Source: a virus
IMG/VR virus record: IMGVR_UViG_3300042304_000071
Span: 1-34,724 of that record
DNA length: 34,724 bases
Direction: 5' to 3' (one strand)
The translations under genes and the position numbers were made by a program. The stretch's first letter is position 1, and every line of letters starts with the position of its first letter. The notes beneath the pieces are model-generated. The model worked only from the letters and a program-made list of their open reading frames with translations. It did not search any database and was not told the origin of the DNA. This document shows, in pieces, positions 15,610 to 30,263 of this stretch.

Positions 15610-15947
15610 GTGCTAAATATAACTTGGTCTGTGACCAAGCAACTACATTTAATTTTCAGTTTCAGATTCTCAACGACAATACTCCTTGGGATCTAACTGG
15701 CTACACAGGCACTATGACTGTGCGCCCATTCGTGGGTGCATCTACTACTACAGTAGTTGCAAGCACAGCCAATGGTCGTATGGTATTTGATGCACTCAAT
15801 GGTCGAATTACCGTAACTATTAACTCAACAATTACTGGTGCTATCTCTGCCAGCCGTTACGCATATGATTTAGTTTTAGATTCAGGTGGAACGGTTACTC
15901 GTATCCTCGAAGGTAAATTTGTGGTGACAGGAGCCGTGACAACTTGA
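15606..15947 (+). CDS. BppU N-terminal-like fibre/baseplate protein
   Basis: 113 residues, TTG start in a TTGA overlap. The order of features ([23 protein letters not shown], then [16 protein letters not shown], then [23 protein letters not shown]) matches a beta domain common in phage proteins upstream of tail fibres, similar to the N-terminal domain of baseplate BppU proteins. It probably anchors or caps a fibre. It is directly upstream of the collagen-like fibre, again with a TTGA overlap. Confidence 0.7.
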
Positions 15948-17224
15948 GCACAATAATTGTTATTGAAAACATTACACCGCAAGTAGCAGTAGAATTTTCG
16001 CAAGACCAAGGACCACAAGGTGGTCAAGGTGTCACTGGACCTACAGGACCCACTGGTCCTGCGGGAGCAACAGGACCAGCAGGAGTTACAGGGGCAACAG
16101 GTGCCGTTGGAGCCACTGGAGTAACAGGAGCAACAGGTGCTACAGGAAGTACTGGACCGATTGGCGCGACGGGTGCCGTTGGTCCTACTGGAATTACAGG
16201 GGCCACAGGCCCTGCAGGCGCAACGGGCGATACGGGAGTCACAGGTCCAACAGGACCTGTTGGCGCTACAGGAATCACGGGAGCTACTGGACCTACGGGA
16301 CCAGCTGGCGCAACTGGAACAACAGGAGTCACAGGTGCGACAGGACCTGCGGGAGCGACTGGCCCACAAGGTGCCACAGGAGTAACAGGTGTTACAGGAG
16401 ATATCGGTCCAACAGGTGCGTTAGGTGCCACAGGGCCAGCAGGTGCAACAGGTCCTACAGGACCAGTTGGCGCAACTGGTGCTACTGGTCCAACTGGTGC
16501 TACAGGTGCCGATGGTGGATCAGCCAACTATTACGATTACAGAACAAATACAAGTGCTACATCTGGTAATCCTGGAAGTGGCGATTTGTTATGGAACAAT
16601 GCTACACAGATTTCTGCTACACAAATTAACATCAATCATCTTAACGATGATGGTGTAGATATTGATATCTTCTTGGCTTTGATTAAGACCAGTGATGTTA
16701 TCTTTGTACAAGATAAGAACAACTCTGGCAATTATCAAAAGTGGACAGTATCTGCCACGCCAACAATACAAGTTGGTTACATTGAAATTCCAGTAACCCT
16801 ATCTACATCTGCAGGAACTGGTACAACAAATTTTTCTAATAACCATCAAATTATTGTGGCTATTATATCAACTGGTATCGTAGGGCCTACAGGTGCCACA
16901 GGACCCATTGGTGCCACAGGTGCCACAGGACCACAAGGAGTTACAGGCGATATAGGTCCTACGGGCGCTACAGGCCCTACAGGGCCTATCGGTGCAGCCT
17001 CAACAGTTGCAGGTCCTACGGGTGCAACAGGCCCAGTAGGTGCAACTGGTACCGCTGGTGCTGCTGGTGCCACTGGTGCTACAGGTCCTTCTGGAATAGA
17101 TGGTGTTACTGGCCCAACAGGACCGACAGGTCCCTCTGGTACAGCAGGAGCAACAGGAGCCACGGGCGTGACTGGTGCCACTGGCCCATCAGATTTTACA
17201 ATGGTATTTATGGGTGCCTATTAA
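15944..17224 (+). CDS. Collagen-like tail fibre protein
   Basis: 426 residues from TTG. Residues 1-22 form a short beta-like anchor. Residues 23-191 and 314-416 are Gly-X-Y repeats, mostly GPT, GAT, GPA and GVT, expected to form collagen-type triple helices. Between them, residues about 192-313 form a non-repeat island ([28 protein letters not shown]) likely to be a trimeric globular domain. The protein ends [11 protein letters not shown]. Thr takes the Y position where animal collagen has hydroxyproline, as is usual in bacterial and phage collagen-like proteins. A trimeric fibre is the likely product. Host receptor unknown. Confidence 0.85.
16010..16516 (+). repeat. Collagen-coding repeat, block 1
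   Basis: Imperfect nine-base steps encoding Gly-X-Y with Gly at every third codon over about 169 codons. Codons vary (GGT, GGA, GGC, GGG), so the repeat is conserved in protein more than in DNA. Opposite-strand reading gives long false Pro/Val/Ala frames. Confidence 0.85.
16883..17191 (+). repeat. Collagen-coding repeat, block 2
   Basis: A second run of about 103 codons of Gly-X-Y, interrupted once around [11 protein letters not shown], following the non-collagen island of the same gene. Composition is slightly more Ala-rich than block 1. Confidence 0.82.
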
Positions 17225-27165: not shown

Positions 27166-27195
27166 ACGTAGAACCGCAGCGCGAGGCAAACAGGA

Positions 27196-27229
27196 GGTCG
27201 GTCCCTACGGGGGCCGGCCTTCTTTTTTT
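27196..27229 (+). terminator. Intrinsic terminator ending the late operon
   Basis: A ten-base-pair stem (GGTCGGTCCC with GGGGCCGGCC, including two G-T pairs) closed by a stable TACG loop, followed by TTCTTTTTTT. This is an excellent rho-independent terminator, 30 bases after the last lysis gene and just before the converging minus-strand HNH gene. Confidence 0.92.
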
Positions 27230-27233
27230 GTCC

Positions 27234-27584
27234 CTAAAATATGCCAGAGTTTGAATCACCTGATAGGTGAGTCTTTAATCTATGACAGTTGGCACACAAG
27301 GTTTGTAGATTGTGTGGCTCATTATTCCACCGGTCACCGTCTATGTGGTCTACATCTAGCTGAGAGATGTGTACTGGTATGAACCCACATCCTTTACATT
27401 CTGTGCCTTTATGTCTAGCGTATGGATAGACGGTGTTGTTGTAGTTGCGCTTCCATACAGTGCGACAGCGATACCTACTAGAGAGCTGGTTCTTCTTGTC
27501 TCTTAGTTTAATCTTTGTTGGGCCACAAATAGAGCACGTGGCAGTGCGTTCTTCTTCGTTATAGTTACTGAGTTTGTGCTGCAT
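27234..27584 (-). CDS. HNH endonuclease
   Basis: 116 residues on the minus strand. Two CxxC pairs (C17-C20 and C63-C66), the core LDVDHIDGD at 76-84, then Asn88, Leu93 and CANCH at 97-101 make up a zinc-stabilised HNH (beta-beta-alpha metal) nuclease. Such free-standing genes are either homing nucleases or packaging helpers. It converges on the late operon from the other side of the terminator and overlaps the upstream zinc-ribbon gene by 20 bases, so the two are probably cotranscribed. Confidence 0.85.
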   Translation of the reverse strand: MQHKLSNYNEEERTATCSICGPTKIKLRDKKNQLSSRYRCRTVWKRNYNNTVYPYARHKGTECKGCGFIPVHISQLDVDHIDGDRWNNEPHNLQTLCANCHRLKTHLSGDSNSGIF

Positions 27585-27879
27585 CTTTGTCTATTGGACA
27601 AGGCACAACTACTAGATTCCCGCAGTTGACACAGGTTGCATCTAAGAAGTACCAGACTAACTCGTAGTCTTCAAAGGAGGCCATAACACTAAAGACTTGT
27701 GAGCCACACGGACACACGTGAAGTGGTCCTAAGCCCCGCAGATCGGTCCCGAAAGGCTCAGGAAGGGTATTCCTACGCCATCTAAACGATGGCAGGGTTG
27801 GTAGACGGAACCGTATGGTTACTGTACGGTTGGTACCGTTGCGCCCATTAAGGGCGCCCACCCGTTTAATTCGCCTCAC
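27565..27879 (-). CDS. Zinc-ribbon protein, unknown function
   Basis: 104 residues on the minus strand. The C-terminal half has LRGLGPLHVCPCGSQVF then ATCVNCGNLVVVPC, giving two Cys pairs that most likely bind zinc. The only available in-frame start upstream of the ribbon is GTG at 27879 or GTG at 27861; there is no ATG before the first Cys pair. The basic first 34 residues (RRIKRVGALNGRN..., many Arg/Thr/Asn) coincide with a cluster of inverted repeats and look less protein-like than the rest. The gene is real at its 3' part; the start is doubtful. Confidence 0.65.
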   Translation of the reverse strand: MRRIKRVGALNGRNGTNRTVTIRFRLPTLPSFRWRRNTLPEPFGTDLRGLGPLHVCPCGSQVFSVMASFEDYELVWYFLDATCVNCGNLVVVPCPIDKDAAQTQ

Positions 27880-27923
27880 GGCTCATATGGTAGTGCCTAG
27901 TAGGTGTCGCTACGCGACGACAC
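27777..27923. repeat. Cluster of inverted repeats at the divergent operon junction
   Basis: Within 147 bases there are five inverted repeats: GCCATC/GATGGC (27777-27793, loop 5), ACCGTA/TACGGT (27810-27830, loop 9), the palindrome GGTACC (27832-27837), GCGCCC/GGGCGC (27841-27857, loop 5) and GTGTCG/CGACAC (27904-27909 and 27918-27923, loop 8). None is followed by a T-tract. The density is unlike the rest of the window. Part overlaps the 5' end of the minus-strand zinc-ribbon gene. Possible roles: control region, replication origin, or structured noncoding RNA. Confidence 0.55.
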
Positions 27924-27949
27924 GCCGTAAGTGGTGATAGCATTCCAGT
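27880..27949. promoter_or_regulatory. Divergent intergenic region
   Basis: Seventy bases between a minus-strand gene start and the plus-strand start at 27950, the only divergent junction in the window. Promoters for both directions should lie here or in the adjoining coding ends, but I see no convincing -35/-10 pair for a primary sigma factor on either strand. It contains the GTGTCG/CGACAC hairpin and only a weak ribosome site (GGTGAT) for the plus gene. Early phage promoters may be read by altered host polymerase, so lack of consensus is not decisive. Confidence 0.45.
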
Positions 27950-28507
27950 ATGACAACAATCGCAGCGATAGAGGGTATTGATTACGCAGTTCTAGTAGCT
28001 GACTCACAGATCACAGAAGATAATCTCGTGACGTTAGCCACTAGTACGCCCAAGATCGTTGAGGTTGGTAAGTATCTCATCGGGATATCAGGTGATACTA
28101 GGCCAGGTGACATACTTTCGTATAACTGGAAGCCACCGGTGTATCGTGGTGAAGATCCTGCACAGTTTATGGGAAAGAAAGTCATACCTAGTATCAATCA
28201 AACATTTACCGATAACAACTACGACTACAATAAGGCGGATAAAGATGGCGGTTTTGATTATCTCATTGCTTTTAACGGCAATATCTTTCGTATTGCTTGT
28301 GATCTCTCTTTTTTCCAAAGCAATGTCGGAGCATATGGCATCGGTTCTGGTGGTCAGTTTGCTCTTGGCTACCTTTCTTCAGTTATCAAACCTGATATGG
28401 ATGTAGCCTTTGCTAAGCGACACGCCCGTAAAGCAGTAGAGATTGCGTCGGTGCTTGACGCTAACACTGGCAAGCCCATACAGTTAGTAGTCCAAGAACG
28501 GTTCTAG
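27950..28507 (+). CDS. Proteasome beta / HslV-like Ntn peptidase
   Basis: 185 residues, close to the length of HslV. After removal of Met1 the new N-terminus is Thr-Thr-Ile, the hallmark of threonine peptidases of the proteasome/HslV family. Counting from that Thr, Asp17 (VLVADSQ) and Lys34 (PKIVEV) fall where the catalytic Asp17 and Lys33 lie. Then comes YLIGISGDTRPGD, aligned with the HslV GFAGGTAD turn, and AYGIGSGGQFALGYL, aligned with IGSGG-YA in HslV. No propeptide is present, as in HslV. No HslU-type unfoldase, alpha subunit or Mpa/ARC gene lies in the window. It is the first gene of the early operon. Likely a cytoplasmic peptidase or a modifier of the host proteasome; substrate unknown. 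Confidence 0.82.
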   Translation: MTTIAAIEGIDYAVLVADSQITEDNLVTLATSTPKIVEVGKYLIGISGDTRPGDILSYNWKPPVYRGEDPAQFMGKKVIPSINQTFTDNNYDYNKADKDGGFDYLIAFNGNIFRIACDLSFFQSNVGAYGIGSGGQFALGYLSSVIKPDMDVAFAKRHARKAVEIASVLDANTGKPIQLVVQERF

Positions 28508-28515
28508 GAGGAGCT

Positions 28516-28674
28516 ATGGATAGCGAAGGCGTTTATATTAAGCACGAGATGAAAGAGATTATTGCAACAGGTGAATACGCTGCACACTACTGGTTCGACC
28601 AGGGTTGGAAGGCGTGTAGACTTGCGTTCTTGTTGCACAAACAAGCAGAAGAAGCTGGAGCATTTAGAGTATGA
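28516..28674 (+). CDS. Small early protein
   Basis: 52 residues with a strong ribosome site (AGGAGGAGCT) and an ATGA overlap to the next gene. Mixed helical content with aromatic and basic residues (HYWFDQGWKACRLAFLLHKQ). No family recognised. Position between the peptidase and the Cas4-like nuclease suggests an early accessory or takeover protein. Confidence 0.6.
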   Translation: MDSEGVYIKHEMKEIIATGEYAAHYWFDQGWKACRLAFLLHKQAEEAGAFRV

Positions 28675-29612
28675 CAGACCCAAAGGAACTGCTGCTGACT
28701 GCACTACGTGCAGGCGATGCTAAGCGTTCACGATCTACACAGGTACAGATTGGTCCATCAGAGGTAGGTGGCTGTCGCCGTAAGGTGTGGTACCGACTTA
28801 ACGATCAACCTGAAACTAATGACAACGAATTAAAACTCGCTGCGATAATGGGTACTGCTATCCACGCAGAGATTGAGAAAGCATTAGCAGATAATCCAGA
28901 TGTGCTAATTGAAACTGAAGTTGAATACAATGGAATGAAAGCACACATTGACTGTTTCGTACCTGGTACTGGTGATGTGATTGATTGGAAGACAAGCAAG
29001 GTCCGGAACCTTTCTTACTTTCCATCAACACAACAACGGTGGCAGGTGCAGCTATACGGCTACCTCCTAGCTAAGAACGGCTATGCGGTCAACCGAGTGT
29101 CACTGGTAGCAATTGCCAGGGACGGGGACGAAAGAGATGTCAAGGTTCACACCGAAGACTACGATGAGTCCATTGCACTAGAAGCACTCGGTTGGCTAGC
29201 GGCTGTTAAAGAAGCTAAGGAAGCACCAGCACCTGAGAAAGATGCAAGTTACTGTCAGCATTACTGTAAGTTCTACGACTCATCAGGTGAGATGGGATGC
29301 GTTGGTCTAAAAAAAGAACGTACACCAGTCAGTGATGTAATCATTACTGATGCAGATATTGACAAGAATGCACTGTTGTATCTACAGTTAGCAGCGCAGA
29401 TTAAAGAGTTAGAAACACATCAAGATTCTTTGAAGACATCCTTCGAAGGAGTACTGGGTACTACTAATTCAGGTATCGAACTCAGTTGGACAACTGTTAG
29501 AGGGCGTGAGTCAGTTGACAGTGAGCAAGTAGAAAAACTATTAGGGTTTGTCCCTAAGAAGGTAGGAGCTGAAAGCCAGCGACTATCAATCAAGCAAAGT
29601 GGAGGCAAGTAA
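28671..29612 (+). CDS. Cas4/RecB-like PD-(D/E)XK nuclease with Fe-S cysteines
   Basis: 313 residues, ATGA overlap. Motifs in order: a Cys in VGGCRRKVWY (C35), MGTAIHAEIE with His65, HIDCF with Asp94, VIDWKTSK with Asp105 and Lys107, WQVQLYGYLL with Gln125/127 and Tyr129, and the Cys group C195-x3-C199-x10-C210. This is the Cas4/AddB-like plan, where C35 and the three late cysteines hold a 4Fe-4S cluster. Phage members process DNA ends during recombination or replication. The last 90 residues are helical. It precedes a small zinc protein and WhiB. No CRISPR array or other Cas gene is here, so no adaptation role is implied. Confidence 0.85.
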   Translation: MTDPKELLLTALRAGDAKRSRSTQVQIGPSEVGGCRRKVWYRLNDQPETNDNELKLAAIMGTAIHAEIEKALADNPDVLIETEVEYNGMKAHIDCFVPGTGDVIDWKTSKVRNLSYFPSTQQRWQVQLYGYLLAKNGYAVNRVSLVAIARDGDERDVKVHTEDYDESIALEALGWLAAVKEAKEAPAPEKDASYCQHYCKFYDSSGEMGCVGLKKERTPVSDVIITDADIDKNALLYLQLAAQIKELETHQDSLKTSFEGVLGTTNSGIELSWTTVRGRESVDSEQVEKLLGFVPKKVGAESQRLSIKQSGGK

Positions 29613-29993: not shown

Positions 29994-30263
29994 ATGCGGG
30001 AGCCAAGTCAATACGAAGCTCCTAGTTGTGAAAGTGTTGGTGGGGACTTCTGGTTTCCAGACGCCAAGATTGATATTAAATCAATTGAAGATACTAAGTA
30101 TGCAGTAAGTATCTGTAATAGGTGTCCCCATCGAAGAGAATGTGCAGAGTGGGGAATCAAGAAAGAATACTTTGGTATCTGGGGTGGTCTTACTTTAAGA
30201 CAGCGCCAGAAGATCAGAGATCAACGAGGCATTAGATTGAATCAGGAGAAGGACATTGCTTAA
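29994..30263 (+). CDS. WhiB-family transcription regulator
   Basis: 89 residues. Four cysteines fit the WhiB 4Fe-4S site: C12, C41, C44 and C50 (C-x28-C-x2-C-x5-C), followed by GIWGG at residues 61-65 and a basic tail (LRQRQKIRDQRG), the DNA-contacting part in WhiB proteins. The family is confined to Actinobacteria and their phages. Host WhiB proteins bind the primary sigma factor; phage versions can repress host whiB genes and alter septation (known for mycobacteriophage TM4). Placed in the early operon, it likely redirects host transcription. Its ribosome site is weak. Confidence 0.9.
   Translation: MREPSQYEAPSCESVGGDFWFPDAKIDIKSIEDTKYAVSICNRCPHRRECAEWGIKKEYFGIWGGLTLRQRQKIRDQRGIRLNQEKDIA

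Follow-up and report, generated by a model that had tools for sequence, protein, structure and literature searches.

Proteasome homologues have been catalogued in phages without a known function, and the contig considered here raises the question of what such an enzyme could do for a virus that appears to carry none of the usual partners. The contig, IMGVR_UViG_3300042304_000071 in IMG/VR, belongs to a virus of freshwater actinobacteria; it is 34,724 bases long, is opened inside its terminase gene, and is referred to below, over its whole length, as the window. An earlier note, made from the sequence alone, had proposed that the plus-strand gene at 27950-28507 encodes a proteasome- or HslV-like threonine peptidase leading an early operon.

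A proteasome-fold threonine peptidase without a propeptide

The gene encodes 185 amino acids, beginning M-TTIAAIEG, that match PF00227 in Pfam (3.7e-12; 46.7 bits, the cut-off being 22.4) and PHROG_1040 (1.9e-28), the title of which, 'peptidase HslV family', is a family label only. After removal of the Met, the protein has Thr1, Asp17, Lys34, G44-x-x-G47 and GSGG at 131-134, bearing out the earlier reading of an exposed TTI, of Asp and Lys at catalytic spacing and of both Gly-rich turns, with the refinement that the Lys lies one residue later than Lys33 of the proteasome. Across 340 homologous sequences, Thr1 and the Lys are kept in all 340, and Asp17 and Gly47 in 339 each, the exceptions being confined to a single phage, J2-1, at a shifted alignment; the equivalents of Thr1/Asp17/Lys33, on whose presence in homologues the earlier note had made its assignment depend, are thus kept in at least 339/340. 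There is no propeptide, start-TTI opening 233 of the 234 first homologues. In the clade to which the window protein belongs (the window clade), the start codon is ATG in 82 of 85 distinct loci and the gene is, judged by a median dN/dS of ~0.10, under purifying selection.

An AlphaFold2 monomer model, built from a 38-sequence alignment (mean pLDDT 87.9, pTM 0.84), recovers the alpha-beta-beta-alpha Ntn fold that the earlier note had expected of a true member. Helices are predicted at 50-59 and 70-88, with helix H2 present and helix 1 spanning only ~10 residues. Against the PDB, the model aligns best with 20S beta subunits and BPH (Z ~19-20, rmsd ~3 Å over ~170 residues), and BPH is the top match in Foldseek; because the Z scores of 20S beta and BPH lie within 1 of each other, structural-library comparison does not distinguish them, and the subfamily is not assignable by fold alone. 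Domain match, residues and model together identify a predicted proteasome-fold threonine peptidase of the PF00227 superfamily, apparently a small and active relative of the proteasome with no need of a known helper. None of the PADLOC anti-phage defence models matched it.

The HslV half of the original description fared less well. HslV (ClpQ) shares Thr1/Asp17/Lys33, the fold and the GSGG turn with the window peptidase, but the latter has a short H1 and a long acidic pore loop, and no HslU was found in the records searched. The NCBIfam HslV model scores 20.2 bits against a cut-off of 157.75, and the NCBIfam archaeal-beta model 33 bits against 224. Since both curated models fall far below their cut-offs, 'HslV-like' can serve as a generic label only, and HslV proper is ruled out as the identity by its score together with the absence of an HslU gene from the 17 related records searched. 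What stands is the kinship with the proteasome superfamily given by PF00227.

An actinophage lineage of group I proteasome homologues

The window protein falls within group I of the proteasome homologues. With the AAH, PPH and CPH of bacteria and phages it shares a compact form, the lack of a propeptide, an occurrence in Caudovirales and the lack of an identified AAA+ partner (PMC8665760). Because PPH and AAH were already described in phages, without a function, by Fuchs, Alva and Lupas in 2021 (PMC8665760), a phage-encoded proteasome relative is not in itself new, and with at least 584 IMG/VR stretches carrying the gene, the earlier description of the arrangement as uncommon is not supported as it stands. 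What is new relative to that survey, which contained no Actinobacteria-specific phage with an AAH (PMC8665760), is an actinophage lineage of group I homologues, found both in WhiB-bearing actinophages and in cultured actinobacterial phages. A search of the open-access literature in full text found no paper on function.

Comparison with the described types sets the protein apart from several of them. PPH is ~140 aa long and lacks H2 (PMC8665760), whereas the window peptidase has 185 aa and retains H2; unlike Connectase, it has no two-helix S3-S4 insertion, the model strands at 36-39 and 42-47 following one another without it. By sequence profile, the solved structures closest to it are those of BPH (5ovu, 2.3e-10) and HslV (3ty6, 2.6e-10). 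BPH assembles without a propeptide into a tetradecamer, has an acidic pore loop and is not known to have an unfoldase; the residues that contact HslU have been lost from it (PMC5777263). BPH (5ovs, 5ovu) is the best match by sequence profile as well as in Foldseek, and the absence of propeptide and unfoldase and the acidity of the pore loop are common to both. However, the phage protein is only ~22-24% identical to BPH, and is known from its sequence and a monomer model, whereas the rings of BPH are known; the likeness appears to be one of design, and is not proof of membership of BPH.

Cellular homologues of the peptidase lie on rhizobial and Streptomyces plasmids. In a tree that includes both, the phage peptidases and the cellular Rhizobium and Streptomyces sequences form separate clades split at 100/100, and the cellular clade, judged by its distribution, is probably AAH. 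The orphan homologues of rhizobial plasmids (L404, L406 and L407) start MTCIVGL, one of them lying between nif-related genes. A genome scan revealed no close cellular copies of the phage peptidase. One candidate, a contig (L150) binned in a 'Gammaproteobacteria' MAG, was rejected, being probably a mis-binned actinophage because a WhiB gene adjoins its peptidase.

Two genomic settings and a candidate leaderless promoter

In the window, the portal, scaffold, capsid and tail genes are followed by a terminator, a pair of genes on the minus strand and, on the plus strand, a replication block encoding Cas4-like exonuclease, WhiB, DnaB-like, RusA, primase and sigma proteins. The tail region includes, at 15944-17224, a collagen-like protein of Gly-X-Y (GPTG/GATG) repeats. 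The terminator, an intrinsic-terminator-like stem of 14 pairs with a T run (27192-27223, plus strand), would close the late transcription unit ahead of the peptidase gene. A divergent, conserved, Cys-rich gene of ~104 aa (27565-27879, minus strand), for which family searches gave no match, adjoins the peptidase gene in 138 loci, and a 52-aa ORF with an AGGAGG Shine-Dalgarno sequence (28516-28674, plus strand), directly 3' of the peptidase gene, is matched in 87. The Cas4-like PD-(D/E)XK exonuclease follows (28671-29612, plus strand), and is preceded by the peptidase gene in all 63 testable window-clade loci (63/63). A WhiB-like regulator in the same gene block (29994-30263, plus strand) is a marker of an actinobacterial host.

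Actinobacterial leaderless promoters usually appear as TANNNT just before the ATG, without a Shine-Dalgarno sequence. This is the layout at the peptidase gene, where the candidate -10 element TAGCAT (27938-27943, plus strand) lies 6 nt before the ATG, and at the divergent gene, where the candidate is TACCAT (27887-27892, minus strand). TANNNT at the 6-nt distance recurs in 82 of the 85 distinct window-clade upstream regions, against a background rate of 6.5%, although this fraction is not a probability, the pattern having been picked out post hoc from the sequence, and in loci that share descent; an SD-like sequence occurs in 0/85. Of the window's 39 plus-strand starts, the leaderless layout is confined to those of the peptidase and a glycosyltransferase. 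The interval between the two divergent leaderless-type promoters (27880-27949) holds a conserved stretch, TTCGCCTCACGGCTCATAT, and an inverted repeat, GTCGC-TAC-GCGAC (27906-27918), recognised in an alignment read by eye, whose GTTGC/GCAAC variants in some relatives retain the symmetry. Stretch and repeat together are a possible shared operator.

Hence the predicted status of the peptidase gene as the first of its own rightward unit is well supported, by the conserved leaderless-type promoter, the terminator and the divergent promoters, and this much of the proposal that it leads an early operon survives. Gene order and content suggest that expression in the window clade is early, but an early position is not general, as a sister group carries the gene in the head operon.

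In that sister group, the gene lies 13-17 nt behind the portal gene, on the same strand and with a Shine-Dalgarno sequence, in 58 of 68 loci, a position in the late head operon that suits a virion role. The group includes the cultured Ca. Planktophila phages LanE43AprE7/F5 (OX376640/OX376641, filed under the name 'Caudovirales sp. ct2KA10'), which encode a homologue of the peptidase and the isolation of which has been published (PMC10202952). They are of the same phage family as the window phage, with portals ~50% identical, peptidases ~30-34% identical and a host in culture, but their peptidase gene follows the portal gene with a Shine-Dalgarno sequence, in contrast to the leaderless promoter of the window clade. 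The window protein groups with an allele located at the portal, the L333 type, to which it is 41% identical (support 93/89 and 95/89 in two trees), and the gene likely left the portal site for the early one; this is not proven, because the window protein and the L333 type are both long branches. In the unrelated phages Pumpernickel, Tunturi_5, J2-1 and Hum25, its neighbours are non-structural genes.

Exchange and loss of alleles behind the portal gene

Among phages with portals that are 80-96% identical, the portal site holds at least five types of allele, delimited by single linkage at 60%. Two sister-group loci, L354 and L335, are 86% identical in DNA through the end of the portal gene, have no nucleotide match across the peptidase gene, and then are 79% identical for 4.4 kb, while their peptidases are 30% identical. 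By such sequence comparisons, peptidase alleles are exchanged gene-for-gene between portal-matched phages of the sister group, a swapping that may be ordinary phage mosaicism. The gene is lacking from 10 of the 68 portal loci, with at least three changes between presence and absence on the portal tree, only one of which is required by well-supported branches. No copy of the peptidase lies anywhere in two records (39.9 and 37.5 kb) in which all main modules are present, nor do these have any ClpP or S78 protease. In the peptidase-less L317 and L345 (G001, G002), a charged ORF of 73-79 aa directly follows the portal gene.

A proposed unfoldase-independent peptidase, probably directed at the host

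The earlier note had found neither HslU nor alpha-subunit genes in the 34,724-nt window, and this absence is confirmed there and extends to related near-complete genomes. The PF07724 domain (AAA_2; HslU/ClpX) is absent from 17 related records, in a search to which 14/14 control genomes were positive. Matches to PF00004 were considered as possible unfoldases and discarded for the small phage genomes that were mapped, where they fall on the DnaB-like gene; a further two PF00004 matches lie in the phage DSL-LC01. The loop that joins H2 to the next strand comprises 14-19 residues and is net acidic (-1 to -5) in 21/21 diverse sequences. An autonomous ring peptidase is favoured because there is no PF07724 unfoldase in the records searched and the pore loop is acidic like that of BPH, and by that precedent a ring of its own, working without an unfoldase, would fit best.

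We give roughly an even chance to the reading that this is a self-assembling, unfoldase-independent group I peptidase of BPH-like design, which in the window clade is an early gene product acting on host proteins in the infected cell. A host aminopeptidase would remove the Met to expose Thr1, and the subunits would assemble into rings with their active sites facing inward, access being gated by the acidic pore loop rather than by an ATPase. In the window clade, the peptidase would be made from its own leaderless promoter, as the first gene of the replication operon. Inside the infected cell it would degrade or clip proteins, the likeliest being host proteins in an unfolded or flexible state, in the service of takeover or counter-defence. 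It would not be a required capsid-maturation enzyme. Ring assembly, activity, early timing and host-directed substrates are what we infer, and gene context makes the host-directed role probable.

The portal neighbourhood in the sister group keeps alive the alternative that the peptidase matures the head or virion, processing the scaffold, the portal or the protein of 1,500-1,900 aa whose gene separates theirs, in place of the usual prohead protease. The close, same-strand position behind the portal gene would agree with this role, as would the lack of S78 or ClpP proteases in genomes of 35-42 kb, but the near-complete relatives without the peptidase also lack S78 and ClpP, the scaffold has a short gene to itself, and a long N-terminal delta domain does not seem evident in the capsid protein. 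Action on the host is preferred to maturation, which we consider distinctly unlikely, because the gene can be absent and is swapped alone between conserved virion-gene flanks, because in the window clade it is not part of the head module and in unrelated phages it has non-structural neighbours, and because the peptidase of DSL-LC01 coexists with a separate S78 match.

Actinobacteria often possess a 20S proteasome and Clp unfoldases, and in combination with the lack of a phage unfoldase in the records searched this would allow the peptidase to work with a host unfoldase (ClpX, ClpC or Mpa/ARC), or to insert into the host 20S proteasome and retarget it. Such a partnership is very improbable: helix 1 is short in the model, the similar BPH has lost its HslU contacts, and there is no special sequence affinity to actinobacterial PrcB. 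The earlier suggestion that the host proteasome is poisoned or joined in mixed rings is not supported. A role in general proteostasis or recycling, in which an uncapped peptidase would clear unfolded phage or host proteins and thereby provide amino acids or relieve folding stress while slow-growing, genome-streamlined hosts are infected, accords with the missing unfoldase, the BPH-like gate and the ATP-independent clearance discussed for such homologues by Fuchs et al. (PMC8665760). It is nevertheless unlikely, because a generic role would not account for the swapping, at a single site, of alleles that are only 30% identical.

A more specific form of the host-directed reading can be offered tentatively. 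In freshwater actinophages, interchangeable, unfoldase-free peptidase alleles at a fixed site behind the portal gene may each have a pore loop and S1 pocket tuned to different host proteins, with one lineage having moved to an early leaderless promoter. If true, these phages would possess a proteolytic system for counter-defence or takeover that is based on a proteasome fold, and gene-for-gene exchange at a fixed site makes substrate or host specificity a concrete prediction.

The homologue in LanE43AprE7/F5, the post-portal site, the exchange of alleles, the existence of near-complete relatives without the gene or a known protease in its place, and the lack of a ClpX/HslU-type unfoldase in 17 related records are new. 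They describe a lineage that is abundant in lakes and apparently active without need of a phage ClpX/HslU-type unfoldase, and the role of which is testable because two phages with the homologue are in culture together with their host, Ca. Planktophila LanE-43. In Planktophila phage F5 (L085, 5035-5812), the exonuclease-like gene after the holin is present as two overlapping ORFs (61 and 202 aa), which may reflect a frameshift or a genuine split.
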